Assembly: GCF_013002715.1 (NCBI RefSeq)
Contig: NZ_JABENB010000001.1
Span: 1,550,001 to 1,614,000 of the forward strand
Length of the DNA: 64,000 nt
DNA from: Flexivirga aerilata
GTDB taxonomy: Bacteria; Actinomycetota; Actinomycetes; Actinomycetales; Dermatophilaceae
Direction: 5' to 3'
Positions 1-64,000 of the stretch are shown in pieces; the stretch's first letter is position 1; each line of letters starts with the position of its first letter. The position numbers and the translations under genes are program-made. The notes beneath the pieces were generated by a model. The model saw nothing but the letters and a program-made list of their open reading frames with translations, was not told the DNA's origin and made no database searches.

Positions 1-545
1 TCCCGGTCAGGAGGCTCCGGCGCGGCCCAGGGATGCTGCGCAAAGCCGATGATCGGGTTGGTCACCATCGACGCGACCTCCCAGGCGTGGTCGTTGAACG
101 TTTCGGGGCGGGCTAGGCCGACGCACGCGAATCTGCCTGCGGGGCGCAGGATTTCGTGCACCTGCAGCAGCGCCGTGCGGAGGTCGAGGTGGTGCAGGAC
201 TGCGATCATCGTCACGAGGTCGGCGCTTTCGGCCGGCATGTCGTCAAGTTGCGTCGCGTCGACCGTGACGTTGGGCAGACCCGCGCACCGTGCCGCGCTG
301 ACCCGGCGCATCTCGGCGTCGGCGTCGGTCCCGTGCACGCGCTCGAAGCGCTCGGCGAGCACGGCGAGGAGTTCACCGCGGCCGCACCCGACGTCCAGCG
401 CATCCGCACGGTGATCAGGCAACTGTGTGGTGATCCAGGTGTGGAAAACGTCGTTGTGGCTCCACGGGTGCCGATCATTCATTCGGCGCAGTGCGTTCGC
501 CGCCCACGCGCCGTGGCGCGAACCAGATATCGCTCGAATCACCAT
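1..545 (-). CDS. Class I SAM-dependent methyltransferase, partial (3' end outside window)
   Basis: The minus strand from an ATG at 545 is open to the window edge (181 codons seen). It carries a Rossmann methyltransferase core: motif I LDVGCGRGELL near residue 48, an acidic GTDAD turn that would bind the SAM ribose, and a MIAVLHHLD motif IV-like stretch. The product would transfer a methyl group from S-adenosylmethionine to an unidentified small molecule. A second in-frame ATG at 482 could be the start instead; neither has a clear ribosome site. The gene lies 15 bases behind the VOC gene on the same strand and may be co-transcribed. The substrate cannot be told, and the C-terminus is missing only because the window ends. 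Confidence 0.75.
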   Translation of the reverse strand, partial: MVIRAISGSRHGAWAANALRRMNDRHPWSHNDVFHTWITTQLPDHRADALDVGCGRGELLAVLAERFERVHGTDADAEMRRVSAARCAGLPNVTVDATQLDDMPAESADLVTMIAVLHHLDLRTALLQVHEILRPAGRFACVGLARPETFNDHAWEVASMVTNPIIGFAQHPWAAPEPPDR

Positions 546-560
546 GATCTGTAGGCGATT

Positions 561-998
561 TCAGCGCAATGCCTCGGCCAGCCCGACGAGAATGCCCTCG
601 GGTCCACGGACGTAACAGAGCCGGTAGACGTCCTCGAATTGGACGACCTCGGTGCTGACCAGCTCTGCGCCATACGGCTCGATGCGGGCGAGCGCGGCGT
701 CCAGGTCGTCGAGCTCGAACATCACCCGCAGGTAGCCCAGCGCGTTGACCGGCGCCCGCCGGTGGTCGGCGACGACGGCCGGCTCGATGAAGCGCGACAG
801 CTCCAGACGGCTGTGCCCGTCCGGCGTGACCATCATCGCGATCTCGACCTGCTGATCGCCCAATCCCGTTACCCTGCCTGCCCATTCGCCCTCGACCATC
901 ATCCGGCCCTCGAGCTCGAGCCCGAGCGCGCGGAAGAACTCGACGGTTGCGGTGAGATCCTCGACGACGATGCCGACGTTGTTCATGCGCACTGTCAT
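561..998 (-). CDS. VOC (glyoxalase/bleomycin-resistance fold) family protein
   Basis: A 145-residue single-domain vicinal-oxygen-chelate protein. The start MTVRMNNVGIVVEDL is typical: a first beta strand, then FFRALGLELEGR, and a second half with YLRVMFELDDLDAALAR and a C-terminal YVRGPEGILVGLAE, the usual end of lactoylglutathione lyase-like proteins. The putative metal ligands are incomplete, so enzymatic activity is uncertain; families of this length include dioxygenase-like and resistance proteins. The start ATG at 998 overlaps, as ATGA, a TGA in the frame where the upstream NhaA-DsbA gene would be expected to end, which suggests an operon. Confidence 0.75.
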   Translation of the reverse strand: MTVRMNNVGIVVEDLTATVEFFRALGLELEGRMMVEGEWAGRVTGLGDQQVEIAMMVTPDGHSRLELSRFIEPAVVADHRRAPVNALGYLRVMFELDDLDAALARIEPYGAELVSTEVVQFEDVYRLCYVRGPEGILVGLAEALR

Positions 999-2887
999 GC
1001 CTGCAGCGTATGGCGGCCCGCGCCGACGACCGGCCCGAGGCGCGCAGCTCGGCGGCGAGGGTCGCTGCGTCATACGCCCCGATGTGGCGGCGGTCGCCGA
1101 CGAAGAACGTCGGGGTGCCGTGCGCACCGCTCGCGTCGGCGCTGCGAGCGTCCTCCAGCACCCGGAGCTCGACCTCGGGCGACTGCAGGTCGGCGAGGAA
1201 CTGCTCGACGTCGAGATCGAGTTCGGCGGCGTAGCCGATCAGGTCGTCGGTCGTCAGCTCGTCCTGGTGGGCGAAGAGCAGATCGTGCATCGGCCAGAAC
1301 TTCCCCTGCAGCGACGCGGCCTCCGCTGCGTGTGCGGCCAGCTCGGCGTGCGGGTGCGGCTCGACGAGCGGCAGGTGCCGGAAGACGTAGCGCAGCTCAC
1401 CCGCAAACTCCTCGCGCAGGTCGCGGAGCATGCCCGTGGCGCGGCCGCAGAAGGGGCACTCGAAATCGCCATACTCCACCAATGTGTATGGCGCGTCGAC
1501 GTTTCCGCGGATGTGGTCCCGCTCGGGGTCGACCGGTCTGTCCAGTCTCACCGGCAGGGTCGCGTAGTGGTGCCCGAGCACCCGGCTGGAGACCAGGAAG
1601 ATCAGGCCGCCGACGAGCGCGGCGAAGACGGCGGACAGCAGCACGCCGACCGTGGCGTCGCGGCGCAACTCCTCGGAGTCGAACGCGAGCCCGATGATCA
1701 GCAGGGACACCGTGAAGCCCATGCCGGACATCGCGGCACCACCGAGCACCTGCGACGGGCTGACGCCCTCCGGCAGCCGGCCCCAGTGCAGCCGCACCGC
1801 ACCGATCGCGCCGAAGCCGACACCGACGAGCTTGCCGATGACCAGACCGGCGACGACGCCCCAGGTGACCGGGGAGCGCAGCGCGTCCTGCAGCACCCCA
1901 CCCCGCAGGTCGACGCCCGCGTTGGCCAGCGCGAAGACCGGGACGATCAGGTAGCTCGTCCACGGGTGCATGCGCACCTGCATCCGCTCGTTGACCGACA
2001 CCGCGCGCCGCAGCGTGGTCGTCGCGGCATGGCCGACATCGGGCATCGGCGACTGCCGGAACGCCCGGAACTGCTGCACGGCCCGGTCGACGTCGCTGCG
2101 GCGCGGGCCGAACGCCGGGACGAGCAGGCCGGCGACCATCCCGGCGATCGACGGGTGCAGGCCGGACCGGACGGTCGCGAGCCACAGCAGGGGGATCGCC
2201 ACGGCATACGGCCAGGTCTGCCAGACGCCGAGCCGGTCGAGCACGAGCAGCGCCACGACGCACGCCAGTGCGCCGAAAAGGCCTGGTAGGTAGTTGTTCT
2301 CGGAGTAGACGACACCGATGATGCTGACCGCGACGATGTCGTCGAAGACGGTCAGGGTCAGCAGGAAGAGCCGCAACTGGCCGGGGCACCTGGGCCCGAG
2401 CAGGGCGACCGCACCCAGCATGAACGCGGTGTCGGTGCCGATCACCGTGCCCCATCCGGCGGCGGCGTCACCCGAGGAGTTGATCGCCCGGTAGATCGCG
2501 GCCGGCACGAGGATGCCGCAGAGCGCGGCAGTGAGGGGCACCACGATCCGTCGCCGGTCGGTGAGCTCGCCCATCGACAACTCGCGGCGCACCTCCAGGC
2601 CGACGACGAGGAAGAACAGCACCATCAGGCCGTCGTTGACCCAGAAATGCAGGTCGTGCTCCATGCCGGCCGACCCGATGCGCACGCCGGGCGGTGGTCT
2701 CCCAGAGCGACTCGTAACTGTGCGACCACGGCGAATTCGCCCAGGCCACGGCGATCACCGCGGCCGCGAGCAGGAATCCGGCGCTGCCCGCCTCGGTCGA
2801 CAGGTAGTGGCGGGCGGCGCGCGGGATCTGGGCCAGCCCGCTGCCCGGTGATCGTTCGGAGGTGGTGCCGAGATCGGTCCGCGCCAT
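995..2887 (-). pseudogene. nhaA: NhaA Na+/H+ antiporter fused to a DsbA-like thioredoxin domain, frameshifted
   Basis: Two reading frames together make one NhaA. The N-terminus (from ATG 2887: [20 protein letters not shown], then [17 protein letters not shown]) is in one frame; the rest, from [20 protein letters not shown] near 2690, is in another. One extra base in the CCC near 2696 would explain this. The antiporter core is otherwise intact, including GTDTAFMLGA and LTVFDDIVAV with the Asp residues needed for ion exchange. After the membrane part comes a DsbA-like domain (VEYGDFECPFCGRATG, CPFC redox pair; GTPTFFVGDRR near the end). NhaA-thioredoxin fusions are known in actinobacteria. The open frame then runs on to 475 across the VOC gene, probably non-genuine: a TGA at 995-997 in the original N-terminal frame would give the ATGA overlap usual here. 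Two compensating indels, or sequencing errors, are likely. Confidence 0.75.
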
Positions 2888-2962
2888 GCCGGGAGTCTAG
2901 GTGGACGACCGGCCGGGGGAGTCGCCCTCGCCTCACCGGCGCAGGTGTGCTGTGGTGTGCGT

Positions 2963-3838
2963 ATGACGAACGACACCTTCCCCCTGGCCGGCCACGACGT
3001 GCACCGCATGGGTTACGGCGCGATGCAGCTGCCCGGGCCGGGAGTCATGGGACCGCCGCGCGACCGGGACGCCGCGCTCGCGGTGCTGCGGCGCGCCGTC
3101 GAACTCGGCGTCAACCACATCGACACCGCCCAGTTCTACGGCCCGGACGTCGCCAACGAGCTGATCCGCGAGGCGCTGCACCCCTACCCCGACGACCTGG
3201 TGCTGGTCTCCAAGGTCGGCGCCCGCCGCGACGACGTCGGTGCCTGGCTGCCCGCGCAGCGGCCGGAGCAACTGCAGGACGACGTGCGGCACAACCTGCG
3301 CGAGCTCGGCGTCGAGCGCCTCCCGGTGGTCAACCTGCGGGTGATGCCGCGCGAGGAGATCGCCGCGGAGGACTACGTGCCGCTCGACGAACAGCTCGCG
3401 GCCATGCGGGAACTCGTCGACCAGGGTCTGCTGGAGGCGTTCGGCGTCAGCAACGTGCCGCCGGAGCAGGCACGCGTCGCGATCGACGCCGGCGCCGTCT
3501 GCGTGCAGAACGCCTACAACCTGCTCTTCCGCGACGACGAGGCCACCCTGCAGCTGTGTGCCGAGCGGAAGGTCGCCTACGTGCCGTTCTTCCCGCTCGG
3601 CTCGGCCTTCCCCAACATGCCGAAGGTCACCGAGGACCCGACCGTGCAGGCGGTCGCGGCCCGGCTCGGCGTCACGCCGTCGCAGGTCGGCCTCGCCTGG
3701 CTGCTGCAGCAGGCCGACAACGTGCTGCTGATCCCCGGCACCTCGTCGGTCGCGCACCTGGAGGAGAACATCGCCGCCGCCCAGGTGCGGCTGACCGACG
3801 CCGACATCGCCGAGCTGGAAGGGCCGCTCGCGGACTAG
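2963..3838 (+). CDS. Aldo/keto reductase
   Basis: A 291-residue TIM-barrel NADPH-dependent oxidoreductase. Visible features are the GYGAMQLPG entry, the catalytic Asp-Tyr block NHIDTAQFYGP near residue 54, the catalytic Lys in VLVSKVGAR, and a coenzyme-binding end with LLIPGTSSVAHLEEN. The position that usually holds the catalytic His (often LHRPD) reads VVNLRVMPR, as in a subgroup of bacterial members, so substrate range is uncertain. ATG 2963 (MTNDTF) is chosen over an upstream alternative at 2945. It stands alone and ends head-on against the gentisate operon with a hairpin between them. Confidence 0.85.
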   Translation: MTNDTFPLAGHDVHRMGYGAMQLPGPGVMGPPRDRDAALAVLRRAVELGVNHIDTAQFYGPDVANELIREALHPYPDDLVLVSKVGARRDDVGAWLPAQRPEQLQDDVRHNLRELGVERLPVVNLRVMPREEIAAEDYVPLDEQLAAMRELVDQGLLEAFGVSNVPPEQARVAIDAGAVCVQNAYNLLFRDDEATLQLCAERKVAYVPFFPLGSAFPNMPKVTEDPTVQAVAARLGVTPSQVGLAWLLQQADNVLLIPGTSSVAHLEENIAAAQVRLTDADIAELEGPLAD

Positions 3839-3892: not shown

Positions 3893-4599
3893 TGCGGCAG
3901 CGCTGCGTCACCGGCGACGCGCAGCCCCGATGTGCCGCGGCCGGCGAGGTATGCCGCAACCGCCGCCACGCCACCGCTCACCTCGGCCGCGGTCTGCCCC
4001 TCCGCGACCGGTGCGGTGACGACCGCGCCATCGTCGACCGACAGCGCCACCCGCGACGCCCCGTCCGGTGCCTTGGCGGTGCGTTGTGCCGCGATGTCCG
4101 CGATCAGCGAAGCCAGGAAATCCGTTGGCAGCGAGGAAAATTCGTCTTCCGGTGCGAGGTCGACGGCGTGGATGAAGACCTCCCGGCAGCGCATCCACGG
4201 CACCTCCGATGCCGGCACCTCGCGGCCCTGCGCGGTGCGCACGGGCGCCTGCCAGTCGGCGTCGGGCAGCTCGCGGAGCCGGCCGAGGAGCACCGCGCCA
4301 CGCTCGATCGTCAACGATCGCAACGCGGTTGGCGACTCTTGCGCGAGTCGCTCGATGTCGGCGTTGCGCTGGCCGGGCGAGGAATACATCGGCGTCTCGA
4401 CTCCGGTCAGGGCCCACGACGCAAGGTTGCCGAGTGCGTCGGCGTTGGCCGCGACGTGCGCGACGACATGTGCGTTGGTCCAGCCGGGCAGGCGGCTCGG
4501 AGCGGCGAAGTCGGCGTCGGACAGGCCGTCCACGGCGCGCTCGAAGAGCTGCTGGCCGGTCCTCGCCCAGGGCAGTGTGGTGGCGACGGGCTCCGTCAT
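3874..4599 (-). CDS. Mycothiol-dependent maleylpyruvate isomerase family protein
   Basis: 241 residues with the DinB-like four-helix fold of the MDMPI family. The N-terminal bundle has the metal-ligand pattern WTNAHVVAHVAANADA (His near 50) and MRCREVFIHAVDL (Glu and His near 143-148); a C-terminal domain follows. The known enzyme isomerises maleylpyruvate to fumarylpyruvate in the gentisate pathway using mycothiol. The context supports that role: the start (ATG 4599, bases ACG next) overlaps the FAH hydrolase stop by 4 bases and gentisate dioxygenase follows upstream. The genome also encodes MshB at 40.8 kb for mycothiol synthesis. The start codon lies inside a copy of the GTATGNCG word. Confidence 0.8.
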   Translation of the reverse strand: MTEPVATTLPWARTGQQLFERAVDGLSDADFAAPSRLPGWTNAHVVAHVAANADALGNLASWALTGVETPMYSSPGQRNADIERLAQESPTALRSLTIERGAVLLGRLRELPDADWQAPVRTAQGREVPASEVPWMRCREVFIHAVDLAPEDEFSSLPTDFLASLIADIAAQRTAKAPDGASRVALSVDDGAVVTAPVAEGQTAAEVSGGVAAVAAYLAGRGTSGLRVAGDAALPQLGPWL

Positions 4600-5432
4600 A
4601 CGGCTGCCTGTGCTGCGCGGCAGGTCGACGACCCGAGCCCGGTGATCGTGGTGGTGAGCACGTCCCCATTGTGCAGGTAGCGGGCCGGCTTTCGGGCGTG
4701 GCCGACCCCGCCCGGAGTGCCTGTCGCGATGACGTCGCCGGGCTGCAGGGTGATCATCGTCGAGACATATTCGACGAGCCGGACCGGGTCGAAGACGAGG
4801 TCGGCGGTGTCGGCCTTCTGCACGACCTCGCCGTTGACCTCCCCGACCAGCGCGAGTGCCGGACGGGTGCCGCCGGGCAGTTCGTCCGGGGTGACGAGGT
4901 AGGGGCCGAGCGGTGTCGTCTCCTCCCACGTCTTGCCCTGGAGCCACATGGGCGAGCGATACTGCCAGTCACGCATCGTCACGTCGTTCAGCACCGCAAA
5001 CCCGGCGATCGCGTCCGACGCCTGCTGCGTCGTTGCCCGGCGGACCCGATCGCCGATGACGACCGCCAGCTCGGCCTCCCAGTCGACCGCGTCGGACTCG
5101 GGCGGCAGCACGATCGCGTCCTCGGCGCCGATGAGACTCTCGGCATACTTGGCGAAAAGGGTTGGAAACTCGGGGAGTTCGCGACTCATCTCGAGGATGT
5201 GATTGCGATAGTTGAGGCCGACGCAGACGATCTTGCCCGGTCGGGTGACGACGGGCGCATAGTCCACCGCGTCCGCTGCGTATGACGTGGCAGCCGCTGC
5301 CGCACGGTCCCGCCAGCCCGGCCGAGCCAGCAGCTCGTCCAGCGTGTCGCAGCCCAGGTCGACCAGCCGGTCGTCGTCGACGCGCACGGCCCGGGTGGCG
5401 TGCTCGGCGGTGCGGACGGTTGCCAGTTTCAT
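4596..5432 (-). CDS. Fumarylacetoacetate hydrolase family protein, probable fumarylpyruvate hydrolase
   Basis: 278 residues. The C-terminal FAH fold begins near residue 70 with KIVCVGLNYRNHILE; the metal-binding acidic cluster DWEAELAVVIG lies near 117-127; QPGDVIATGTPGGVG near 245 is the typical end motif. Such enzymes split C-C bonds of acylpyruvates; in this operon the substrate is most likely fumarylpyruvate, giving fumarate and pyruvate. Both ends overlap neighbours as ATGA (with dioxygenase and isomerase), so translation is probably coupled. The exact substrate is inferred from context only. Confidence 0.88.
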   Translation of the reverse strand: MKLATVRTAEHATRAVRVDDDRLVDLGCDTLDELLARPGWRDRAAAAATSYAADAVDYAPVVTRPGKIVCVGLNYRNHILEMSRELPEFPTLFAKYAESLIGAEDAIVLPPESDAVDWEAELAVVIGDRVRRATTQQASDAIAGFAVLNDVTMRDWQYRSPMWLQGKTWEETTPLGPYLVTPDELPGGTRPALALVGEVNGEVVQKADTADLVFDPVRLVEYVSTMITLQPGDVIATGTPGGVGHARKPARYLHNGDVLTTTITGLGSSTCRAAQAAV

Positions 5433-6636: not shown

Positions 6637-7953
6637 TCAGTGGGCGACAACGGAGTCCAGCTGTTTGCGCGGCGCCGATGCCGCTCGCACGGTGCGCGTG
6701 GTCACCGCCAGCAGCGCCGCCGCCAGTGCGGAGGCAGCGGCGAACATCGCGATGTTGCCGCCGACCCCGTAGCCGCCGTCGATCAGCCAGCCGCCGGCCT
6801 GTGGCGCGACGATCGCCCCCACGCGCCCCGCGCCGAGCGCGAAGCCGAGCGCCGTGCCCCGGGCCACCGCCGGATAGCGGTTGGTGATCGCGGCGATGAT
6901 GAGGCACTGCGTGCCGTGGGTGCCGATGCCGGCGATCACCAGCGCGGCATAGACCGGCACGGCGCTGGACGGGTAGGTGAGCAGGAAGGCCAGACCGGCC
7001 GCGGCCGCCAACGCGGCAACCGCCGCGCTGCGCAGGGGTCCGAAGCGGTCGCCCGCCCACGCGGTGAGGGCGGACCCGGCGACGGCCCCCAGGTTGAGAG
7101 CGAGCAGGAAGGTCAGCGGGTCGCCCAGGTCGAATCTGCCGTCCGGTCCCATGAGCTTGGGCAGCCAGGTGCCGAGGCCATACCACGCGAAAAGCGTTGC
7201 GATCGTTGCGCATGCGAACAGCACGGACGCAACGAGATAGGGCGGTCGCAGCACCGCGCTGAGCGGTGCGACGTGTCCGGTGCCGACCGGGTCGGCCTCG
7301 CCGGTCAAGCCGAACTCCTGCTCGATGCGGTGGGCCTGCTCCGGCCGGCCGTGCACCCGCAACCACGCGGGCGACTCCGGCAGGAGCACCGCAGCGGCCG
7401 GCAGCAGCACGACCAGCGCGAGTGCGGCGACGGCATACATGCCGCGCCACTCGATTGTCGGCATCGCCCACAGCCCGAGCAGCGCGGCGATCGAGCCACC
7501 GATCGGCACACCGGACATCATCGCGGTGGCGATGAGCGCGCGCCTGCCCTTGCCGACGAATTCGGCGGTGAGCGCGTTGGCGGTGGGCACCAGGCCGCCC
7601 AGGCCGATGCCCGCCACGAAGCGCAGGATCCCGAACGACGTCGGGCCGCCGGCGAAGGCGCACAGGGTCGTGAAGACCGAGAACCACGCGGTGCAGGCGA
7701 GGATCATCCGGCGGCGGCCGAGCCGGTCGGCGAGCACCCCGGCGCCGAGTGCGCCGACCAGCATGCCGGCGAAGGCCAGGCTGCCGATCGTGCCCGCCTG
7801 GCCGGCGGTCAGCCCCCAGCCGGGCTCGGCCAGGAGCTTCGGGATCGTCGTCCCGTAGACGATGAGGTCGTAGCCGTCGAAGACGACGATCGACCAGCAC
7901 AACACCGCGACGAGCAGTGTGGACCGGCGCTTGCCGGAGGTGACCTGTGTCAT
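6637..7953 (-). CDS. MFS transporter, aromatic acid:H+ symporter type
   Basis: 438 residues, about 12 membrane segments. TM1 carries DGYDLIVYG, the acidic DGxD motif typical of the AAHS family (PcaK, GenK), and the loop 2-3 signature ADRLGRRRMI is present, with LPESPAWL at the mid-loop. Being the first gene of the gentisate operon, it probably imports gentisate or a precursor such as 3-hydroxybenzoate or salicylate. The start is placed at ATG 7953 (MTQVTSGKRR), which leaves a 50-base divergent promoter to the IclR gene; an in-frame ATG at 8016 would overlap that gene. Confidence 0.85.
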   Translation of the reverse strand: MTQVTSGKRRSTLLVAVLCWSIVVFDGYDLIVYGTTIPKLLAEPGWGLTAGQAGTIGSLAFAGMLVGALGAGVLADRLGRRRMILACTAWFSVFTTLCAFAGGPTSFGILRFVAGIGLGGLVPTANALTAEFVGKGRRALIATAMMSGVPIGGSIAALLGLWAMPTIEWRGMYAVAALALVVLLPAAAVLLPESPAWLRVHGRPEQAHRIEQEFGLTGEADPVGTGHVAPLSAVLRPPYLVASVLFACATIATLFAWYGLGTWLPKLMGPDGRFDLGDPLTFLLALNLGAVAGSALTAWAGDRFGPLRSAAVAALAAAAGLAFLLTYPSSAVPVYAALVIAGIGTHGTQCLIIAAITNRYPAVARGTALGFALGAGRVGAIVAPQAGGWLIDGGYGVGGNIAMFAAASALAAALLAVTTRTVRAASAPRKQLDSVVAH

Positions 7954-8003: not shown

Positions 8004-8801
8004 ATGAAGAATCCACCGAGTTACGCGATCGCCAGCGTGGACCACGCGCTGCGACTGGCGGTGATGTTGCAGGTGGAGGGCCCGCTCGGCGTCAGCGACG
8101 CCGCGGAACGTCTCGGGGTCGCTCGCTCCACCGCGCACCGGTTGCTCTCGATGCTCGCCTACCGGGACTTCGCCGTGCAGCGCTCCGACCGTCGGTATGC
8201 CGTGGGACCCGTGCTGGCAGTGGGTCATTCGTCGGATCGCTCGCGCACCGCGCACCTTCGCGCGGCCGCGATGCCCTGGCTCGCGGCGCTGATGGAGGAG
8301 GTGCAGGAGTCGGCGAACGTCCAGGTCCTCACCGGGGAGCACTGCCGCTTCGTGGGCGCCGTCGAGTGCCGCCAGGCGCTGCGCGTGGGGGATCGGGAGG
8401 GCATGGCCTTCCCGGCGCACAAGGTGTCGGGCGGGAAGGTGCTGCTCGCCGAACTCTCGACCGCCGAGCTGAGCGCTCTCTACAGCGCCGAGCGCTTCGC
8501 CGACCGTCCGGAGGAACTGCCCAATGTGGCGAGCCTGCGGCAGGAGCTGTCGTGGGTCCGGCGGCGCGGCTACGCGATCAACATCGAGGGTGCGGAGAAG
8601 GGCGTGGTCGGGATCGGCCGGCCGTTGCGGCTCGGTGCCGAGCGCGCGGAGGCGGCGGTCTGCGTGTCGTTGCCGACCGTGCGATTCGACGATGAGCGGG
8701 TGCGGGTCATCCTGGGCGCGCTGACCCGCGCCGCTGTCGGCATCGAGGCCGACTTCGTCGCCCAGCGGCCCGGCGGGCTCAGCGCGCCGGCGGACGCATG
8801 A
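8004..8801 (+). CDS. IclR-family transcriptional regulator of the gentisate operon
   Basis: 265 residues. An N-terminal winged helix (ALRLAVMLQVEGPLGVSDAA, then LGVARSTAHRLLSMLAYRDF) is followed by the IclR effector domain with REGMAFPAHKVSGGKVLLAE and RGYAINIEGAEKGVVGIG. IclR proteins adjacent to aromatic catabolic genes sense the pathway substrate. The gene is divergent from the transporter with 50 bases between. ATG 8004 is preferred over an upstream in-frame start because AGGAC lies 11 bases before it. Its 3' end overlaps the convergent DUF1295 gene by 23 bases. Confidence 0.88.
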   Translation: MKNPPSYAIASVDHALRLAVMLQVEGPLGVSDAAERLGVARSTAHRLLSMLAYRDFAVQRSDRRYAVGPVLAVGHSSDRSRTAHLRAAAMPWLAALMEEVQESANVQVLTGEHCRFVGAVECRQALRVGDREGMAFPAHKVSGGKVLLAELSTAELSALYSAERFADRPEELPNVASLRQELSWVRRRGYAINIEGAEKGVVGIGRPLRLGAERAEAAVCVSLPTVRFDDERVRVILGALTRAAVGIEADFVAQRPGGLSAPADA

Positions 8802-9552
8802 CGAACATCGGTGTCCGGCTGCGATATTCGGCATAGCCCGGGCGGTCAGCCATCGCCTTCTCGAGCAACCGGGCACCGCTGCCCCAGACCAGCAGGCCCA
8901 CCATGATCGCCGGTGACAAGACCGTCGCGACGCCGGGCCAGGCGGCGCACGCCACGAGGTAGACGCCCACCCAGAAGCACGCGTCGCCGAAGTAGTTGGG
9001 ATGGCGCGACCACGCCCACAGGCCGGTGTCCAGGATCGGCGGGCGAGGTTGCTGCTGCTTGTAGTTGGTCAGTTGCGCGTCGGCGACGGCCTCGATGACC
9101 AGCCCGGCGACCGCGACCACCACGCCCAGCACGGCGAGGACGACGAGCGCGCCGCCCGGGTCGGACGTGACCGCCACGACCTGGATCGGCGCCGAGACGA
9201 TCCACTGGATCAGGCCCTGCAGACCGAACACCCGCAGTGCAGTCGCAAGGGTCGAACGCCCTTGCGTCATACGCACATAACGCGGGTCGTCGTCGTGCGG
9301 CCGGCTCCGCCGCCCGATGTGTATGGCGAGGCGTGCGGCCCAGGCGGTCACCAACACCGCGAGCGCGACGCGCCGCCATACGCCGCCGTGGCCGGTCGCC
9401 AGGCCGAGCAGTGCCACGGCCGCGATGCCCGGACCCCAGACCACGTCGGCCACGTCCCAGCGGCCGGCCCGTCGTGACCACCAGAATGCGGCCGCCTGGA
9501 TGAGCGCCACGAGGACGGCGCTGGCCAGTGCCATCCAGAGGAGGTCAGGCAC
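8779..9552 (-). CDS. DUF1295 membrane protein (steroid 5-alpha-reductase-like fold)
   Basis: 257 residues, about six membrane helices. The C-terminal GLWAWSRHPNYFGDACFW (near 180) is the signature of the DUF1295/isoprenylcysteine methyltransferase-like fold, and KAMADRPGYAEYRSRTPMF ends the domain. The GTG start at 9552 overlaps the CFA synthase stop by 8 bases. In M. tuberculosis the equivalent gene (Rv0446c, from memory) sits next to ufaA1 and sigK, so a role in membrane-lipid modification is likely, but no reaction has been fixed. Confidence 0.8.
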   Translation of the reverse strand: MPDLLWMALASAVLVALIQAAAFWWSRRAGRWDVADVVWGPGIAAVALLGLATGHGGVWRRVALAVLVTAWAARLAIHIGRRSRPHDDDPRYVRMTQGRSTLATALRVFGLQGLIQWIVSAPIQVVAVTSDPGGALVVLAVLGVVVAVAGLVIEAVADAQLTNYKQQQPRPPILDTGLWAWSRHPNYFGDACFWVGVYLVACAAWPGVATVLSPAIMVGLLVWGSGARLLEKAMADRPGYAEYRSRTPMFVMRPPAR

Positions 9553-47783: not shown

Positions 47784-49077
<1,294 letters not shown>

Positions 49078-52263: not shown

Positions 52264-52304
52264 GTATGACGCCGGACGCGGCGCGCGTGCGGCGAGCGTC
52301 ATAC
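52264..52304. promoter_or_regulatory. Inverted pair of GTATGACG words between dapD and dapE
   Basis: GTATGACGC (52264-52272) and GCGTCATAC (52296-52304) face each other across 23 bases in the 79-base divergent promoter region. It could form a hairpin or bind a dimeric protein. Both arms are copies of the word that is repeated over the whole window. Confidence 0.5.
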
Positions 52305-54567: not shown

Positions 54568-55020
54568 GTGAAAGAGATTGTCGTCACTGCAGATTCGAGC
54601 GCATCGGTCGCACGTCTGTGGCAGGTCGTGTCCGACTGGGACGCGCACTCGCGCGCCTTCCCGTTCACCCGTATGACGGTGCTCGCGGGCGACCCCGGCG
54701 TCGGCCAGCGGCTGGACGCGATCACCGCGATCGGGCCGGTGCGCATGCACGACCCGATGACCGTCGTCCGGTGGGAGCCGCCGGGGGAGTCCGGCGCGTC
54801 GGCGGCCCTCGCGATCCACAAGACCGGGCGGGTGCTCGGCGGCGACGCCACCGTCGAGGTCACGCCGACCGCCACCGGCTCCCGGCTGACCTGGCGCACC
54901 GACGTCGGGCCGGCCCCGGCGTGGCTGCGTCGCCTCTCCGCGCCCGCATCCGGGCCGGTCGGGGGCCTGGTCTACCGGCACGCGGTCGGCCGGCTCGTCG
55001 CGGAGGCCGAGCATGGCTGA
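54568..55020 (+). CDS. SRPBCC/polyketide cyclase-like protein
   Basis: 150 residues from GTG 54568. The start VVTADSSASVARLWQVVSDW is typical of START/SRPBCC proteins, with a central beta sheet (GQRLDAITAIGPVRMHDPMT) and a C-terminal helix (PVGGLVYRHAVGRLVAEAEH). They bind small hydrophobic ligands; no ligand can be named. It overlaps the tag start by 8 bases. Confidence 0.8.
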   Translation: MKEIVVTADSSASVARLWQVVSDWDAHSRAFPFTRMTVLAGDPGVGQRLDAITAIGPVRMHDPMTVVRWEPPGESGASAALAIHKTGRVLGGDATVEVTPTATGSRLTWRTDVGPAPAWLRRLSAPASGPVGGLVYRHAVGRLVAEAEHG

Positions 55021-55624
55021 CCTGCCTGACCTGACTGACCTGCCTGGCCCGCCATCCCTCGTGGTCGGCGACGACGGCCGGGCGCGGTGCGCCTGGGGCG
55101 CCTCCACTGACGACTACCGCGTCTACCACGACACCGAGTGGGGCGCGCCCGTGCGCGGCGAGCAGGCGCTCTACGAACGCATCACGCTGGAGGCCTTCCA
55201 GTCGGGGCTGTCCTGGCTGACGATCCTGCGCAAACGCCCGGCGTTCCGTGCCGCGTTCGCCGGCTTCGACCCGGAGGTCGTCGCCGGTTACGGCGACGCC
55301 GACCGCGAGCGGCTGATGCAGGACGCCGGCATCGTGCGCAACCGCCGCAAGATCGACGCGGCGATCACCAACGCAGCCGCCGTGCTCCGGCTGCGCGAGG
55401 CCGGCGGACTCGACCAACTCATCTGGTCCCACCGCCCGCAGACGCACCGTCGTCCGCAATCGTTCGCCGAAACCCCAGCAACCACACCCGAATCCGTCGC
55501 TCTCGCCAAGGCCCTGAAGAAGGCGGGCTTCGCCCACGTCGGGCCGACCACCATGTATGCCGCGATGCAGGCGTGCGGCATTGTCGACGACCACATTGCC
55601 GGCTGCTTCCGGGCCCAGTCGTGA
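55013..55624 (+). CDS. tag: DNA-3-methyladenine glycosylase I
   Basis: 203 residues. The Tag motifs are RCAWGASTDDYRVYHDTEWG (Trp and His), GEQALYERITLEAFQSGLSW (Glu and Trp near 62), and FAHVGPTTMYAAMQACGIVD then DH near the end. It removes 3-methyladenine from DNA. The N-terminus has a DLPDLTDLPG repeat encoded by a CTGACCTGCC-type DNA repeat. It follows the LOG and DivIVA genes as tagA does in mycobacteria. Confidence 0.92.
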   Translation: MADLPDLTDLPGPPSLVVGDDGRARCAWGASTDDYRVYHDTEWGAPVRGEQALYERITLEAFQSGLSWLTILRKRPAFRAAFAGFDPEVVAGYGDADRERLMQDAGIVRNRRKIDAAITNAAAVLRLREAGGLDQLIWSHRPQTHRRPQSFAETPATTPESVALAKALKKAGFAHVGPTTMYAAMQACGIVDDHIAGCFRAQS

Positions 55625-56892
55625 GCGTGCGCACCTCTCCGGCGCCGGCCGCATCGGCCGCGGCTCCCGTCATACGGCCAGGCGGCTGGCGTCTGCGGCT
55701 GACCCGGCTGCTCGACCACCGGCTGCTGCTCTGCGTCGCGGTGGCCTACCTGGCGTTCCGGTTGTTCTCGGCGATCGTGATGGCGTTGGTCGCCTCGCAC
55801 CAGGACCTCGGCTTCGTCTATTACTCCACGGGCCGCCAGGACTACTGGGAGATGACCCACGTCTGGGACGGCCGGTGGTACCAGCGGATCGTCGAGGACG
55901 GCTATCCGGGCACCCTGCCGCGCGACTCGAGCGGCAACGTCGCCCAGAACCAGTGGGCGTTCTACCCGATGTACCCGATGCTCGTGTCCGCGTTGATGTG
56001 GCTCACCGGCGGGTCGTTCGCGGTCGTGGGCTCGCTGCTCTCGCTCGTGCTCGGGCTGGTCGCGGCACTGCTCATGGCGGTGTTGTTCCGGCAGCAGGTG
56101 GGTGCGGTCGCCGCGTTCGGGGCGGTCTGCGTCTATGCGGCAGCACCGCCGTCGCCGGTGCTGCAGATGACCTACACCGAGTCGCTCGCGATGGTGTTGC
56201 TGCTCGTGGCGCTGCTCGGCTTCCAGCGGCACAACTGGTGGCTGGTGACGCTCGCCGCGCTCGCCTGCGGGGTCGCCCGGCCGATCGCGGTGCCGTTGGC
56301 GCTGGTCGCGCTCGTCGTGGCGTGGCACCGCTGGAAGGAGCGTGACCGGCGCCCGATCTCCCGCGGCGAGTGGGCCGGTATGGCGTCGGCGCTCGTCGCG
56401 TGCGGCCTCTCCTGGGCGATCTGGCCGGTCTACGCAGGGCTGCGGACCGGGAGCTTCTCGGCATACACCGACACGATGGCCGCCTGGCGCGGCGGCGGGT
56501 CGATCACCTACTTCGTGTCCTGGGCGGGCAACTTCGACCGGCTCTTCGGACCGGTCGGGGCGGCGTTCTGGCTGACCGTGATGATCGTCGGCTTCCTGGC
56601 GCTGGTGCTCGGGCCGTGGGCGTCCGCCCTCGGCACGGTGCTGCGCACCTGGGTGCTCGCCTACGGGTTCTACCTGCTGGCCGTCCTGGACGCCTGGACC
56701 AGCACCTACCGCTACCTGCTGCTGATGTTCCCGATCGCGGTGGTGCTGATCGGTGCCGGCTGGCAGGACCGGCGCAACTGGCTGTTCGTCGGCCCGCGGA
56801 CGGTGATCTGGGTGGTGCTCGGCCTCGGCTGGCAGGTCTGGTGGTGCTGGACGCTGCTCGTGCTCACCCACATCGGTGGCGACGCGATCTGA
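55621..56892 (+). CDS. PIG-V-like mannosyltransferase, membrane protein
   Basis: 423 residues from a GTG that overlaps the tag stop (GTGA). About ten membrane helices; the first outer loop has WDGRWYQRIVEDGYPG near 88, with the Asp of the GT-C fold catalytic motif, and NQWAFYPMYPML follows as in PIG-V mannosyltransferases. It probably transfers a sugar from a polyprenyl donor to an envelope glycolipid or protein. Acceptor and sugar are unknown. Confidence 0.8.
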   Translation: MSVRTSPAPAASAAAPVIRPGGWRLRLTRLLDHRLLLCVAVAYLAFRLFSAIVMALVASHQDLGFVYYSTGRQDYWEMTHVWDGRWYQRIVEDGYPGTLPRDSSGNVAQNQWAFYPMYPMLVSALMWLTGGSFAVVGSLLSLVLGLVAALLMAVLFRQQVGAVAAFGAVCVYAAAPPSPVLQMTYTESLAMVLLLVALLGFQRHNWWLVTLAALACGVARPIAVPLALVALVVAWHRWKERDRRPISRGEWAGMASALVACGLSWAIWPVYAGLRTGSFSAYTDTMAAWRGGGSITYFVSWAGNFDRLFGPVGAAFWLTVMIVGFLALVLGPWASALGTVLRTWVLAYGFYLLAVLDAWTSTYRYLLLMFPIAVVLIGAGWQDRRNWLFVGPRTVIWVVLGLGWQVWWCWTLLVLTHIGGDAI

Positions 56893-58952: not shown

Positions 58953-60341
58953 TCAGCTCTGGTGGTCGGTGCCGTCGCCGTGGCGGGGCTGCGGCTGGCC
59001 CGGCAGCTGCACCCCCTGCGGCGGGTATGCCGGGGGCGGCCCCTGCTGCAGCTGCGGCGGCTCACCCTGGCGCGGCTGGGCGGCCGTCGTCTCGGGCGAG
59101 ACCTCCGGCTGACCGTCGGGCGACTGGCCCGATCCCGACTGCCCCGGCTGCCCGGACTGGCTGGGCTGCCCCGATCCCGACTGGCCCGCGGCCGGGGACG
59201 GCGTCTCGGCGGCGCGCTTGGCGAGCCGGCCGGCCAGGGTCTCCTGCTCGGGGTCGGCCGACTGCCGCGCGACCGCCTCGGCGTCGGCGACCGCCTTGGC
59301 GACCGCCGGGTCGCGGGTCAGCTTGAACCACTCGGCGACGTCCTCGTCCTCGACCGGCGCCAGGTCCTCCGACGGCGGCATCTCGTAACGGAAGGTGCCG
59401 TCCTCGCCCTTGGTGCCGAACGACTTGGCGAAGCCCTGCAGCGCCGACCCGAAGTCGGTCGGCACCACCCACACCTTGCTCGCCTCGCCCTTGGCCATCT
59501 CGGGCAGCGTGCGCAGGTATTGGTAGGCCAGCAGCTCCGGGGTGGGCTTGCTCGCCCGGATCGCGTTGAACGTCTTCTCGATCGCCTTGGCCTCACCCTG
59601 CGCCTGGAGATACTGGGCGGCACGGTCACCCTCGGCGCGCAGCACCTGCGACTGCCGGTCGGCCTCGGCGGCCAGGATCGCCGCCTGCTTGGCACCCTCG
59701 GCGGCGAGGATCTGGCTCTGCTTGTCACCCTCGGCCGACTTGATCGCGGCCTCGCGGTGACCCTCGGCCGCCAGGATGGTCGCCCGCTTCTCGCGGTCGG
59801 CCTTCATCTGCTTCTCCATCGACTCCTGGATCGACGGCGGCGGGAAGATCGACTTCAGCTCCACCCGGGCCACGCGCAGGCCCCAGCGGCCGGTCGCCTC
59901 GTCGAGCACGCCGCGCAGCTGGGCGTTGATCGTCTCGCGTGAGGTGAGGGTCTCCTCCAGCGTCATACCGCCGACGACGTTGCGCAGCGTGGTGGTGGTC
60001 AGCTGCTCGACACCGACGATGTAGTCGTTGATCTCATAGACCGCGGCGCGGGGGTCGGTCACCTGGAAGTAGACGACGGTGTCGATGTTCACCGTCAGGT
60101 TGTCCTCGGTGATGACCGGCTGCGGCGGGAAGGACACCACCCGTTCGCGCAGATCCACCCGGGCGCGCACGCGGTCGATGAACGGCATCAGCAGCGTCAG
60201 CTGGCCCGACACGGTCTTGGTGTACCGCCCGAGCCGCTCGATCACCGCGGCTTCGGCCTGCGGGATCAGCGCCACGGACTTCACGACCACGACGATCACC
60301 AGGATCACCAGGATCGCGACGACGATCAGGACTGGTTCCAT
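58953..60341 (-). CDS. SPFH/Band 7 protein (stomatin/QmcA type)
   Basis: 462 residues. One N-terminal helix (VLIVVAILVILVIVVVVKSV), the SPFH domain (AVIERLGRYTKTVSGQLTLL; DNLTVNIDTVVYFQVTDPRA; RETINAQLRGVLDEATGRWG), a coiled coil rich in AAEG repeats (about 185-270), and an extended Gln/Pro/Gly/Ser tail with SGSGQPSQSGQPGQSGSGQS. Such proteins build membrane microdomains and regulate proteases. It is 3 bases behind the NfeD gene, its usual partner. Confidence 0.93.
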   Translation of the reverse strand: MEPVLIVVAILVILVIVVVVKSVALIPQAEAAVIERLGRYTKTVSGQLTLLMPFIDRVRARVDLRERVVSFPPQPVITEDNLTVNIDTVVYFQVTDPRAAVYEINDYIVGVEQLTTTTLRNVVGGMTLEETLTSRETINAQLRGVLDEATGRWGLRVARVELKSIFPPPSIQESMEKQMKADREKRATILAAEGHREAAIKSAEGDKQSQILAAEGAKQAAILAAEADRQSQVLRAEGDRAAQYLQAQGEAKAIEKTFNAIRASKPTPELLAYQYLRTLPEMAKGEASKVWVVPTDFGSALQGFAKSFGTKGEDGTFRYEMPPSEDLAPVEDEDVAEWFKLTRDPAVAKAVADAEAVARQSADPEQETLAGRLAKRAAETPSPAAGQSGSGQPSQSGQPGQSGSGQSPDGQPEVSPETTAAQPRQGEPPQLQQGPPPAYPPQGVQLPGQPQPRHGDGTDHQS

Positions 60342-60825: not shown

Positions 60826-61629
60826 TCACCGGCCGGTGAAGACCGGCTGCTCCTTGGCGAGGAAGGCGTCGACGGCTGCCTTGTGGTCGGCCGTCGCGCC
60901 GGTGTCGTTCATCAGCTGCCCCTCGTGCGCGAGCGACTCGGCGAGGGTGTGGGTGGCCGAGTATTCGACCGCGCGCCGGATGGCGCCGTACGCCCGGGTC
61001 GGCCCGGCGGCGAGCGTGCGCGCCGTCTGCGCCACCTCGGCCGCGAACTCGCCGGCAGGTATGACGCGGGTCGCGATCCCGAGCTGCAGCGCCTCGTCCG
61101 CCTTGACGGTCCGCGGCATCAGCAGCAGCTCCTTGGCCTTGGCCACGCCGACCAGCCGCGGCAGCCAGAACGACGACCCGGAGTCGCTGGAGAGGGCGAT
61201 CCCGGCGAACGCCAGGTTGAAGCCGGCCGCGTCGCTCACCAGCCGCAGGTCGCAGGCGAAGGTGAACGCCGCACCGGCACCGGCGGCGACGCCGTTGACC
61301 GCAGCGATGACCGGCTTGTCCATGGTCGAGAGCAACTCCACGATTGGGTTGTAGTGCTCGGCGACCGTGGTGAACAGGCTCTCCGAGCCCTCTGCCAGGA
61401 GCCCGACGTGCTCTTTCAGGTCCTGGCCGACGCAGAACGCGCGGCCGGTGCCGGTCAGCACCACGCAGCGCGCCTCCGGGTCGGCGGCCACCCGCTGCAG
61501 CGCCGCGAGCAGCGCCTCCTTGGTGGCGATGTCGAGGGAGTTCATCGCGTCCGGCCGGTTGAGCCGGACCGTCGCCACCCCCTCGGCGTACTCGACGACG
61601 ACGGGCTGGTCGGTGGCGGCATCGGTCAT
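60826..61629 (-). CDS. Enoyl-CoA hydratase/isomerase family protein
   Basis: 267 residues, crotonase fold. RPDAMNSLDIATKEALLAAL near 27, the oxyanion-hole stretch GTGRAFCVGQDLKEH near 60 and VAAVNGVAAGAGAAFTFACD-like AAVNGVAAGAGAAFTFACDL near 108 are present. The second active-site position SSDSGSSFWLPRLVG has Asp-Ser-Gly where hydratases have Glu, so isomerase (PaaG-type) activity is likely. GAGGAG lies about 12 bases before ATG 61629. Confidence 0.87.
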   Translation of the reverse strand: MTDAATDQPVVVEYAEGVATVRLNRPDAMNSLDIATKEALLAALQRVAADPEARCVVLTGTGRAFCVGQDLKEHVGLLAEGSESLFTTVAEHYNPIVELLSTMDKPVIAAVNGVAAGAGAAFTFACDLRLVSDAAGFNLAFAGIALSSDSGSSFWLPRLVGVAKAKELLLMPRTVKADEALQLGIATRVIPAGEFAAEVAQTARTLAAGPTRAYGAIRRAVEYSATHTLAESLAHEGQLMNDTGATADHKAAVDAFLAKEQPVFTGR

Positions 61630-62075: not shown

Positions 62076-62127
62076 TCGCGCGTGCTTGTCAGGTCTCGCG
62101 CACGGTATGCCGGGGCGAGCGCCCGCC

Positions 62128-62760
62128 TCAGCGGCGCACTGCGGCCAGCAGCCCGTCGCCGACCGGCAGCAGGCTCGTCACCCAGGCAGGGTCGTCGCGC
62201 AACTGCTTGCCGAGGTCGCGCAGCAGCACGGTCGTCTCGTCCCGCACCGCCGGGTCGGCCACCTTGTCGTGCCAGAGCATGTTGTCGATCACGAGCAGGC
62301 CACCCGGGCGCAGCAGCTTCTGGGCCGCCTCCACGTAGGCGGGGTAGTCGGGCTTGTGCGCATCGACCAGCACCAGGTCGTAGCCGCCGTCGGCGAGGCG
62401 CGACATGACCTTCAGCGCGTCGCCGGTGATGATCCGGGTGCGGCCGGGTGCGACGCCGGCCTCGGCATACGCCTGCCGCGCGGCGCGCTGGTGCTCGGTC
62501 TTCACATCGATCGTGGTGAGCACGCCGTCGGCCGGCATGCCGTCGAGCAGCCACAGCCCGGAGACACCGGCTCCCGTGCCGACCTCGACGACCGCGCGCG
62601 CCCCGACCGCCGCCGCCAGCATCCGCAGGGCCGGGCCGGTGCCGGCGCCGATCGGCGTCGCGCCCAGCTCCTCACCGCGGCGGCGGGCCTGCTCGACGAT
62701 CTCTGGCTCGGGGACGAACTCTTCGGCATACCCCCAGGTCGCCGGTCGCATGGAAGACAT
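62128..62760 (-). CDS. O-methyltransferase (class I, catechol-type)
   Basis: 210 residues. Motif I is VVEVGTGAGVSGLWLLDGMP near 56; YDLVLVDAHKPDYPAYVEAA near 127 holds the metal-binding Asp; GGLLVIDNMLWHDKVADPAV near 153 has the Asp-Asn pair. It belongs to the family of Rv1220c, which lies divergent from sigE in M. tuberculosis, exactly as here. The substrate is not known. Confidence 0.88.
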   Translation of the reverse strand: MSSMRPATWGYAEEFVPEPEIVEQARRRGEELGATPIGAGTGPALRMLAAAVGARAVVEVGTGAGVSGLWLLDGMPADGVLTTIDVKTEHQRAARQAYAEAGVAPGRTRIITGDALKVMSRLADGGYDLVLVDAHKPDYPAYVEAAQKLLRPGGLLVIDNMLWHDKVADPAVRDETTVLLRDLGKQLRDDPAWVTSLLPVGDGLLAAVRR

Positions 62761-62972
62761 GGCGACGAAACTAGACCCTCCGCGCGGGCGCGGGCGACGC
62801 GGGCGGTGAAAACGCACCCGTGCCGGCGGCCGGTAACGAATCGCCGGTGTCGTGCGTTGTACCGGGCACGTCACCGGTCGGTGGTGCGCGCGCACAGCGG
62901 ACGCATAGCTTGATCGGTAAGGATGGCCTCTCCTGAAGAGGTTTCCCTAAGCTTCGAGGTGAATCGCACGTC

Positions 62973-63611
62973 ATGACCGATCAACTGCTGCGGGGTGCAG
63001 TCAAGACCGAGGTGCCCGATGTGGCGCCGCCCGGCTGGGAGCCGCCGACGTGGGAGGAGATCGTCACCGAGCACTCCGCTCGCGTCTACCGTCTCGCCTA
63101 CCGGCTGACCGGCAACGTGCACGACGCCGAGGACCTGACCCACGACGTGTTCGTGCGGGTCTTCCGGTCCCTGCACTCCTACCGCCCGGGCACCTTCGAG
63201 GGCTGGCTGCACCGCATCACCACCAACGTGTTCCTCGACAAGATGCGCCGCAAGCAGCGCATCCGCTTCGACGCGCTCGCCGACGACGCCGCCGCCCGGC
63301 TGCCCAGTCGCGAGGGCAGCCCCGAGCAGGTGTATGCCGACGCGCACTTCGACGACGACGTGCAGCGGGCGCTCGACGCGCTGGCGCCGGACTTCCGCGC
63401 CGCGGTCGTGCTCTGCGACATCGAGGGCCTGTCCTACGAGGAGATCGCCGCGACGCTCGACATCAAGCTCGGCACCGTGCGGTCGCGCATCCACCGCGGG
63501 CGCGCCCAGCTGCGCGAGGCGCTGGCCCACCGCGCGCCCGAAAACCGTCCCGCGCGCACCCGTGCCGCGACCGGCGGCCTCACCCTGTCCCCGGCGGCAG
63601 GCACGCGATGA
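62973..63611 (+). CDS. sigE: ECF RNA polymerase sigma factor SigE
   Basis: 212 residues. Region 2: [20 protein letters not shown] then [14 protein letters not shown] (about 38-72) and the -10 contact region [20 protein letters not shown]; region 4: [20 protein letters not shown] and [19 protein letters not shown] (about 140-190). It controls envelope-stress genes with the anti-sigma factor that overlaps its stop (ATGA). Neighbours (O-methyltransferase before, zinc-finger anti-sigma after) match the mycobacterial sigE locus. GAGGTG lies 12 bases ahead; the 212-base divergent region has no clear ECF promoter by eye. Confidence 0.9.
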
Positions 63612-64000
63612 TCAGCTTCGGCAGCCGGCAGCAGCACCAACAGCATCTCGGCGATGCCGTTGCCGAGTATGTCGACGGCAAGCTCAACCCCGCGCAGGAG
63701 CACCGGGCCGACCTGCACCTGATGATCTGCGAACACTGCCGCCACGCGGTGCAGCAGGAGCGCGAGATCATCGCCCAGCTGCGTTCGGTGAGCTTCGACT
63801 CCGGCGGTCACCAGCAGCTGATGGCCGGGCTGCTGTCGCTCGCGTCCGCCGAACCCCAGGCGCCGGGGTCACCCGCGGCCCCCGCCATACCCGCCCGGCG
63901 GGCGCCGGCTGTGGTCACCACCAGCGCCCCGCCGCAATATCAGTCGGCCCGCCGGTCGATGGCCTGCGCGCTGGCCGCGGTCGCCGGCTGCGTCGGCGTC
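63608..64000 (+). CDS. rseA: Zinc-finger anti-sigma factor RseA-like, partial (3' end outside window)
   Basis: 131 residues seen, open at the window edge. The anti-sigma zinc motif [15 protein letters not shown] (H-x3-C-x2-C) is at about 37-45, followed by a Pro/Ala-rich linker and [15 protein letters not shown], the start of a likely membrane helix. It should bind SigE and release it on envelope stress or redox change. The start overlaps sigE as ATGA. Confidence 0.85.

Follow-up and report, generated by a model that had tools for sequence, protein, structure and literature searches.

Short words iterated along bacterial genomes include several described systems. The highly iterated palindrome (HIP1) of cyanobacteria is the palindromic octamer GCGATCGC, the FtsK orienting polar sequences (KOPS) are polar DNA words read by a motor, and other short words of bacterial genomes are AGCGG of B. 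subtilis and GCTGGCGC of Pseudomonas. AdnAB is the end-processing enzyme class of mycobacteria and streptomycetes. Here we analyze the 8-base word GTATGNCG, first noticed in a 64-kb stretch of the Flexivirga aerilata genome (the window, meaning the whole stretch), and compare it with these systems and with Chi. According to an excerpt of PMC5959072, Chi shows an insignificant strand skew in B. subtilis, S. aureus and H. influenzae and none in Pseudomonas. Passages from two further papers state that regulation of AdnAB by Chi was not known in 2016 (PMC4824097) and that management of the Chi-like stage was unclear in 2026 (PMC13309787).

We tentatively propose, with somewhat less than even confidence, that GTATGNCG is a selected chromosomal self-mark that is read in one orientation by a machine on one strand, and that it is Chi-like, with AdnAB as its likeliest reader. 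The original prediction knew of no description of such a word in actinobacteria; we likewise found none in the open-licence literature on uptake, HIP1 or Chi motifs, and the exact forms GTATGNCG, GTATGCCG and GTATGACG and their complements were not found in the relevant open-licence literature.

Abundance of the word in the source genome

Over the whole source genome (G000; 4,007,297 bases in 6 contigs), GTATGNCG occurs 5,019 times (2,555 forward and 2,464 reverse), or once per 798 bp, compared with 853 occurrences of the reversed pattern, so the enrichment claimed for the window holds genome-wide. Such over-representation, which is also a property of Chi, was also seen in a 448-kb sample made up of the window and further stretches of the same genome, where the word had the highest z-score among 7-mers and 8-mers allowing one or two free inner bases (554 copies vs 40 expected from an order-2 Markov model; G017, with one 347-base contig, was excluded from this ranking). 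Six of the nine blocks of this sample were used in the tests of spacing and eligibility, the comparison of dialects and GTATG rarity, the replacement-word search and the pair test on control words. The other three (c3, c4 and c5, from contigs that are acquired, doubtful or short) were omitted there but retained in the Markov ranking, the motif and strand counts, the synonymous shuffling and the near-word counts. The free base in the sample was A, C, G or T at frequencies of 0.36, 0.34, 0.20 and 0.10, and the flanks showed no marked specificity beyond 8 bp, on which ground a longer motif was rejected. Strand skew was not seen in five G000 blocks of 64-80 kb (plus/minus counts of 45/43, 59/56, 61/57, 46/45 and 55/48).

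A bias in codon or dipeptide usage might generate such a word, and the commonest frames do encode Tyr-[ADGV] and NCA-Tyr. However, synonymous-codon shuffling within the 380 genes of the 448-kb sample (predicted by a simple codon-usage caller) left 61 ± 7 copies (maximum 80 in 100 shuffles) where 454 are observed, all six frames are occupied, and the density is similar within and between predicted genes (1.20 and 1.12 per kb). Copies of the word within genes are nearly balanced between sense and antisense (245 vs 209). The burden on codon choice is large, since in the sample the word takes in 66 of the 101 ATA codons and 189 of the 534 TAT codons, and between 18% and 68% of synonymously eligible sites carry it, depending on the frame. 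Protein sequence and codon usage therefore do not explain the abundance of GTATGNCG; the shuffling refutes this explanation, whose probability we consider negligible, and the enrichment withstands the codon model against which the original prediction had asked it to be judged. Coding has been shaped by the word, whatever its reader.

Taken together, sequences one mismatch away from the word are not over-represented (713, where synonymous shuffling, whose expectation is inflated, gives 932), although one neighbor, CTATGNCG, is 2.1-fold above the order-2 Markov model. GTATG outside the word is about equally rare in worded genomes and in the four high-GC wordless genomes sampled. For this reason the apparent avoidance of near-words in the Markov model is an artefact, and active avoidance was rejected.

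Orientation-specific spacing of the word

Consecutive copies of the word alternate in orientation more often than permutation predicts. The G000 sample gave 355 alternating pairs among 536 (270 ± 12 in permutations; 0 of 2000 as high), and six relatives, sampled in one and the same genomic region with many words in common and so not independent, together gave 245 of 402 (203 ± 10; 0 of 2000). G024, scored for its own dialect GTATGCG, gave 52 of 76 (38.5 ± 4.4; 3 of 2000), and the window alone 58 of 87 (12 of 5000 permutations as high). By genome, alternation z-scores were 2.6 in G011 and G002, 2.2 in G008 and 1.9 in G001; the highest among seven control words was 2.3, for GTACGNCG. The excess arises because same-orientation pairs are depleted: pooled over 11 genomes, they occur at 0.23-0.64 of expectation at separations of 8-640 bp, at 0.84-0.89 at 640-1280 bp and at 1.0 beyond, whereas opposite-orientation pairs scatter around 1, with divergent pairs at 1.5-1.6 at 40-120 bp.

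Gene structure is not the cause of this spacing, since choosing at random among synonymously eligible sites, with frame classes preserved, gives 146 ± 10 same-orientation pairs within 640 bp where 90 are observed (0 of 500 as low); the same model gives 153 ± 10 opposite pairs where 180 are observed (4 of 500 as high). Depletion of same-orientation pairs was not sustained in six other G000 words (most bins lay near or above 1, the lowest at 0.68). In G014, a wordless genome, the words with more copies showed isolated low bins only, such as 0.31 below 40 bp for CGNTGTCG and 0.67 at 160-320 bp for GCGTCCG; its rarer words have too few pairs to judge.

Each strand thus holds its own spaced set of words, and the two orientations behave independently. 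Selection counts a nearby second copy as redundant only when it points the same way. This implies a beneficiary that reads one orientation, so that each strand would need its own set, with a word every 1-2 kb; we infer that the reader is polar and works on one strand. The original prediction had likened the word to uptake sequences or HIP1 and set it apart from FtsK and Chi signals. Its picture of a dense, genome-wide word acting at the DNA level stands, but given the orientation-specific spacing, balanced strands do not exclude Chi, and balanced totals are compatible with Chi because skew is insignificant or absent for several Chi words in the excerpt of PMC5959072.

On the Chi-like explanation, the word would be read by a helicase-nuclease that prepares broken DNA ends for recombination. 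Such an enzyme would read one strand when it enters from one side of a break and the other strand when it enters from the opposite side, which would give each strand a set of its own; each strand would then need a word every 1-2 kb, and a close copy in the same orientation would add little. The leading candidate for this reader would be AdnAB, possibly with an accessory factor that has been lost in some lineages.

The spacing bears differently on the other explanations. The chief rival of the Chi-like reading is a single-strand uptake word, in which a factor beside ComEC or DprA protects or favors imported strands that bear the word: either strand may enter, each would need its own spaced set, and the same spacing is predicted. 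We are not aware of an uptake factor that recognizes imported single strands from their sequence, and we consider this explanation unlikely. A polar chromosome-bound protein (a directional roadblock, a loader or a translocase guide) needing a site on each strand about every kilobase would also fit, as orientation-specific spacing and genome-wide coverage suit any polar reader of DNA. The five large blocks nevertheless lack the strand skew of FtsK guides, the near balance of sense and antisense copies speaks against a role in RNA or transcription, and there is no candidate protein, so we hold such a protein to be quite unlikely. For a classical, orientation-blind uptake sequence, in which the duplex word is bound by a surface pilin that brings the DNA in, same and opposite pairs should be spaced alike, but they differ; a nucleoid word read regardless of orientation would likewise be expected to deplete the two kinds of pair equally. 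Uptake of known words is reported to be independent of orientation in an excerpt of PMC1939737, and the spacing here is not. Nor do near-words, taken as a class, exceed their number in synonymous shuffles. The density, the balanced strands and the presence of words in and between genes are as this explanation would have them, yet we consider it distinctly improbable. A fourth possibility is a word made by modification or biased repair and drifting like HIP1, spaced without benefit. Its abundance would be HIP1-like, but a local process gives no reason for avoidance confined to the same orientation over about 1 kb, and we regard this origin as very improbable.

Copies of the word in the window

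The window holds 88 copies of GTATGNCG (45 plus, 43 minus), compared with a mean of 4.27 and a largest count of 10 in 100 dinucleotide shuffles; the original prediction had counted close to 90 (about 45 plus, 42 minus). It had also proposed ranking 8-mers with one free base against a third-order Markov model, and among 8-mers with one inner N and at least 30 occurrences the word ranks first in observed over expected (88 vs 13.4). As it had noticed, nearly every GTATG is followed by NCG (88 of 92), and N is most often C (35) or A (28), less often G (18) and rarely T (7). The four exceptions it placed near 7160, 19475, 35430 and 57117 are real, but start at 7179, 19474, 35426 and 57117. Its example words are likewise genuine, although several positions were off by 1-7 bases (15400 for 15406, 46939 for 46934) and 52304 is the end of the copy at 52297-52304. 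All 88 matches, with strand and form, are as follows.

668..675, minus, GTATGGCG match
1008..1015, plus, GTATGGCG match
1068..1075, minus, GTATGACG match
1467..1474, minus, GTATGGCG match
1486..1493, plus, GTATGGCG match
2202..2209, minus, GTATGCCG match
2961..2968, plus, GTATGACG match
3949..3956, plus, GTATGCCG match
4594..4601, minus, GTATGACG match
5141..5148, minus, GTATGCCG match
5280..5287, plus, GTATGACG match
7431..7438, minus, GTATGCCG match
8195..8202, plus, GTATGCCG match
9265..9272, minus, GTATGACG match
9321..9328, plus, GTATGGCG match
9374..9381, minus, GTATGGCG match
12449..12456, minus, GTATGTCG match
12819..12826, plus, GTATGCCG match
13733..13740, plus, GTATGCCG match
13792..13799, minus, GTATGCCG match
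14343..14350, minus, GTATGGCG match
15406..15413, plus, GTATGCCG match
15557..15564, plus, GTATGACG match
16376..16383, minus, GTATGGCG match
17470..17477, minus, GTATGCCG match
18561..18568, plus, GTATGACG match
19215..19222, minus, GTATGGCG match
19487..19494, plus, GTATGTCG match
19702..19709, minus, GTATGACG match
19747..19754, plus, GTATGACG match
20667..20674, plus, GTATGACG match
21072..21079, plus, GTATGTCG match
21896..21903, minus, GTATGGCG match
22664..22671, plus, GTATGCCG match
22834..22841, minus, GTATGTCG match
23102..23109, plus, GTATGACG match
23633..23640, plus, GTATGGCG match
24249..24256, minus, GTATGGCG match
25580..25587, minus, GTATGACG match
25680..25687, plus, GTATGACG match
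27092..27099, minus, GTATGCCG match
28682..28689, plus, GTATGTCG match
29288..29295, minus, GTATGGCG match
31481..31488, plus, GTATGGCG match
31607..31614, minus, GTATGCCG match
32316..32323, plus, GTATGCCG match
33351..33358, minus, GTATGCCG match
34739..34746, plus, GTATGCCG match
34913..34920, minus, GTATGTCG match
36226..36233, plus, GTATGGCG match
36947..36954, plus, GTATGACG match
37992..37999, minus, GTATGGCG match
38442..38449, minus, GTATGCCG match
38587..38594, plus, GTATGACG match
39541..39548, plus, GTATGACG match
41295..41302, plus, GTATGCCG match
41632..41639, minus, GTATGACG match
43081..43088, minus, GTATGACG match
44212..44219, plus, GTATGCCG match
45405..45412, plus, GTATGACG match
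45701..45708, minus, GTATGCCG match
45843..45850, minus, GTATGCCG match
46154..46161, minus, GTATGCCG match
46934..46941, plus, GTATGACG match
47429..47436, plus, GTATGCCG match
47567..47574, minus, GTATGCCG match
48304..48311, minus, GTATGCCG match
49444..49451, plus, GTATGCCG match
50946..50953, plus, GTATGCCG match
52184..52191, minus, GTATGACG match
52264..52271, plus, GTATGACG match
52297..52304, minus, GTATGACG match
52934..52941, minus, GTATGCCG match
53124..53131, plus, GTATGACG match
54671..54678, plus, GTATGACG match
55555..55562, plus, GTATGCCG match
55668..55675, minus, GTATGACG match
56378..56385, plus, GTATGGCG match
56459..56466, minus, GTATGCCG match
59025..59032, plus, GTATGCCG match
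59961..59968, minus, GTATGACG match
61059..61066, plus, GTATGACG match
62105..62112, plus, GTATGCCG match
62463..62470, minus, GTATGCCG match
62724..62731, minus, GTATGCCG match
63332..63339, plus, GTATGCCG match
63667..63674, plus, GTATGTCG match
63883..63890, minus, GTATGGCG match

Two sets of genes in the window were recognized by eye from their translations: an open frame at 475-2685 (minus strand) that resembles an NhaA-type Na+/H+ antiporter fused to a thioredoxin/DsbA-like domain, and two neighboring frames at 9545-12117 (minus strand) that resemble cyclopropane-fatty-acid synthases.

Distribution, dialects and turnover

Judged by named relatives of the citrate synthase encoded in the window, the organism belongs near Knoellia, Nostocoides, Janibacter and Ornithinimicrobium, and we take the family to be Dermatophilaceae. 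We called a genome worded when copies of the word numbered 15 or more per 100 kb and were at least twice as many as those of the reversed control, a cut-off of our own choosing. By this measure the 149 Dermatophilaceae genomes comprise 85 worded, 4 dialect (GTATGCG, all in one genus) and 60 wordless genomes, and the 53 genera comprise 27 worded throughout, 20 wordless, 1 dialect and 5 mixed. Two genera (g65 and g69) straddle the cut-off with weak but visible enrichment, and fourteen genomes, 4 of them dialect, have densities of 8-20 copies per 100 kb. Lone wordless genomes occur in two otherwise worded genera, on putative assignment: G094 beside G029 and G120 (g26), and G146 beside four others (g56). 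In tables judged by eye, none of 22 genomes from other families of the order and none of 290 from other families of the class (among 296 sampled) reached the cut-off; the two samples have 8 genomes in common, and in one family (f45) some genomes reach ratios of about 2-5, although on very low counts.

Worded genomes carry one word per 0.6-6.5 kb. The form GTATGCCG is nearly exclusive in G011 (117 of 120), G021 (50 of 53) and G026 (69 of 71), and G024 uses GTATGCG, one base shorter than GTATGNCG (55 vs 5.5 expected in 80 kb). Genome-wide counts of GTATGCG in four sampled genomes of the G024 genus are 2,328 vs 248, 1,971 vs 265, 1,368 vs 170 and 2,148 vs 215; elsewhere its enrichment is at most 3.2-fold (G127, 803 vs 250), and G000 has 112 copies. 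In addition to this 3.2-fold excess, G127 (genus g68) has 1,036 copies of GTATGNCG against a control of 325, and its dialect is perhaps mixed or in the course of change. In G023, CGTACGNC is weakly over-represented (55 vs 16 in 80 kb). The three dialects GTATGNCG, GTATGCCG and GTATGCG recall the uptake words, as within-family dialects are described for Neisseriaceae in an excerpt of PMC3630211, and the combination of density and dialects is consistent with either uptake explanation.

Comparison of the TypA region shows that words are conserved among worded relatives. In G004 (88% identical DNA) 48 of 51 words are kept, compared with 60% of letter-shuffled control words, and in worded relatives at 76-78% identity 20/41, 23/37, 23/49, 13/34 and 10/20 are kept, compared with 28-32% of controls, whereas wordless or dialect relatives keep 0/16, 1/27, 0/10 and 0/13, compared with 21-29%. 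The words are therefore held in place and yet turn over, with their density maintained. Among aligned word sites in wordless or dialect orthologues (gapped sites dropped), 41 of 58 differ at two or more positions, which argues against the mutation-driven origin; in its favor, these orthologues most often have a C where the word has its T at position 4 (10 of 16 one-mismatch sites).

Acquired DNA is word-poor. The 20.7-kb polyketide stretch of G000 (contig C1, 908-929 kb) contains two words, and the first 20 kb of contig C3, where conjugation genes are present, contains 7; the small contigs are also word-sparse (5 words in the 20 kb read of C4 and none in the 4.3 kb of C5). This scarcity and the conservation of words in G004 count in favor of a Chi-like self-mark; the scarcity is also what a single-strand uptake word would lead one to expect. 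The word-poor region at about 911-929 kb of C1 is a lower-GC, type II polyketide-like cluster whose ten scanned proteins include two ketosynthases, a cyclase, a P450, an FAD halogenase-like enzyme and a carboxyltransferase. The start of C3 encodes a TraG/TraD-type coupling protein, a weak match to TrbL and an M23/NlpC-P60 peptidase, and is possibly an integrative conjugative element.

Search for the reader

We read the two-gene adnAB locus in 40 genomes (20 worded or dialect, 20 wordless) and found both proteins in all 40; which gene is AdnA and which AdnB is our own assignment. In G000 both proteins have Pfam UvrD helicase and PD-(D/E)XK nuclease domains, the latter being common to AdnA, AdnB and other nucleases and present in 149 of 149 genomes. 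We favor AdnAB because it translocates along a strand, is present in all 20 worded or dialect genomes and has a relation to Chi that is open in print. That AdnAB is the reader, with a Chi-like output, is nonetheless our guess, given that both proteins occur in every one of the 40 genomes, worded or not, and that none of the genes tested follows the word. A gene that follows the word, as a Chi reader might, was not found among RecC, the PD-(D/E)XK domain and AdnAB, although finding an enzyme in genomes that lack the word is not enough to rule out Chi. RecBCD was rejected as the reader on the grounds that RecC does not track the word.

Genes for uptake give a similar picture. The presence of ComEC (145 of 149 genomes) and of ComEA (20 of 20 loci) suits a single-strand uptake word, but both occur in worded and wordless genomes alike and so do not track it. 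These proteins and the secretion-type ATPases (T2SSE, 148 of 149) are near-universal and uninformative as tracking genes. PilM was detected in 5 of 149 genomes, and the search of G000 did not find it, which speaks against both uptake explanations and led us to reject type IVa pili. We found no open-licence paper on natural transformation in Intrasporangiaceae, a further point against single-strand uptake.

Several observations weigh against a Chi-like mark read by AdnAB. AdnAB is equally present in wordless genomes (20 of 20), and no alignment column of AdnA or AdnB (at least 95% conserved in one group and at most half so in the other) separates 19 worded from 20 wordless genomes, with G024 left out. 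Nor does the Walker A lysine of the first protein follow the word, as arginine replaces it in 4 of 20 wordless genomes and in 1 of 20 worded ones. RecC, found in 60 of 149 genomes, occurs in 30 of 89 worded or dialect and 30 of 60 wordless genomes (Fisher p 0.06), the wrong direction. An AdnA tree of 40 genomes needs 9 changes of word state, at least 7 of them forced, which is odd for a core repair function and would suit an accessory trait such as single-strand uptake. Alternation is weak or absent in several genomes (z of 1.66 in G003, 1.59 in G021, 1.39 in G004, 0.77 in G007 and 0.09 in G026), and the spacing test was confined to this word, its dialect and control words. Finally, no replacement word was evident in G014, the sole wordless genome sampled deeply: its best candidates by z-score were 1.6-3.5 times over the model, and a replacement was rejected since, wherever copies sufficed for the test, orientation avoidance was not sustained. 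Among G014 words, GGACGC was 1.7-fold and GGACGCCG 2.5-fold over an order-3 Markov model, neither with orientation-dependent spacing.

A more specific form of the Chi-like proposal, which we regard as doubtful, is that the word represents the first Chi belonging to the AdnAB class, ultra-dense and strand-spaced, with the genus-level dialects GTATGNCG, GTATGCCG and GTATGCG. If so, much of one actinobacterial family would have retained the word, and it would have disappeared on several occasions, where AdnAB became blind to it. A dense word, defined dialects and natural wordless relatives make the question of an AdnAB Chi directly testable, and the orientation-pair test can be carried over to further iterated words whose function is unknown or disputed.

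Comparison with known systems

Unlike the KOPS words, GTATGNCG is without strand skew in the sampled blocks: no bias of the KOPS or architecture imparting sequence (AIMS) kind was seen in the five blocks, with origin and terminus not located. Like HIP1, it is an octamer iterated genome-wide, patchy across its clade and of unknown reader. HIP1, however, is a palindrome, so that orientation is untestable there, whereas GTATGNCG is not palindromic but asymmetric, with a loosely specified base, and its two orientations can be followed separately.

The DNA uptake sequences (DUS) of Neisseriaceae and the uptake signal sequences (USS) of Pasteurellaceae resemble the word in density, balanced strands, genic and intergenic sites, family dialects and scarcity in acquired DNA. 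They differ in that the host here is actinobacterial, the word has no marked specificity outside 8 bp, its near-words as a class are not in excess and PilM was not found in G000. Judged from spacing, the indifference to orientation of DUS and USS is not shared, as same-orientation pairs are depleted and opposite pairs are not.

Compared with Chi (RecBCD/AddAB), the word is about 5-6 times denser than the E. coli signal, given as one per 4.5 kb in the excerpt of PMC5959072; we have not seen orientation-specific spacing described for Chi; RecC does not track the word, and AdnAB is without a known Chi in the passage of PMC4824097. Both are short, asymmetric, over-represented words that vary between lineages, and replichore skew can be lacking in Chi as well (excerpt of PMC5959072). 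Chi functions in one orientation and marks self DNA, and the spacing of GTATGNCG suggests that it, too, would be read in a polar manner.

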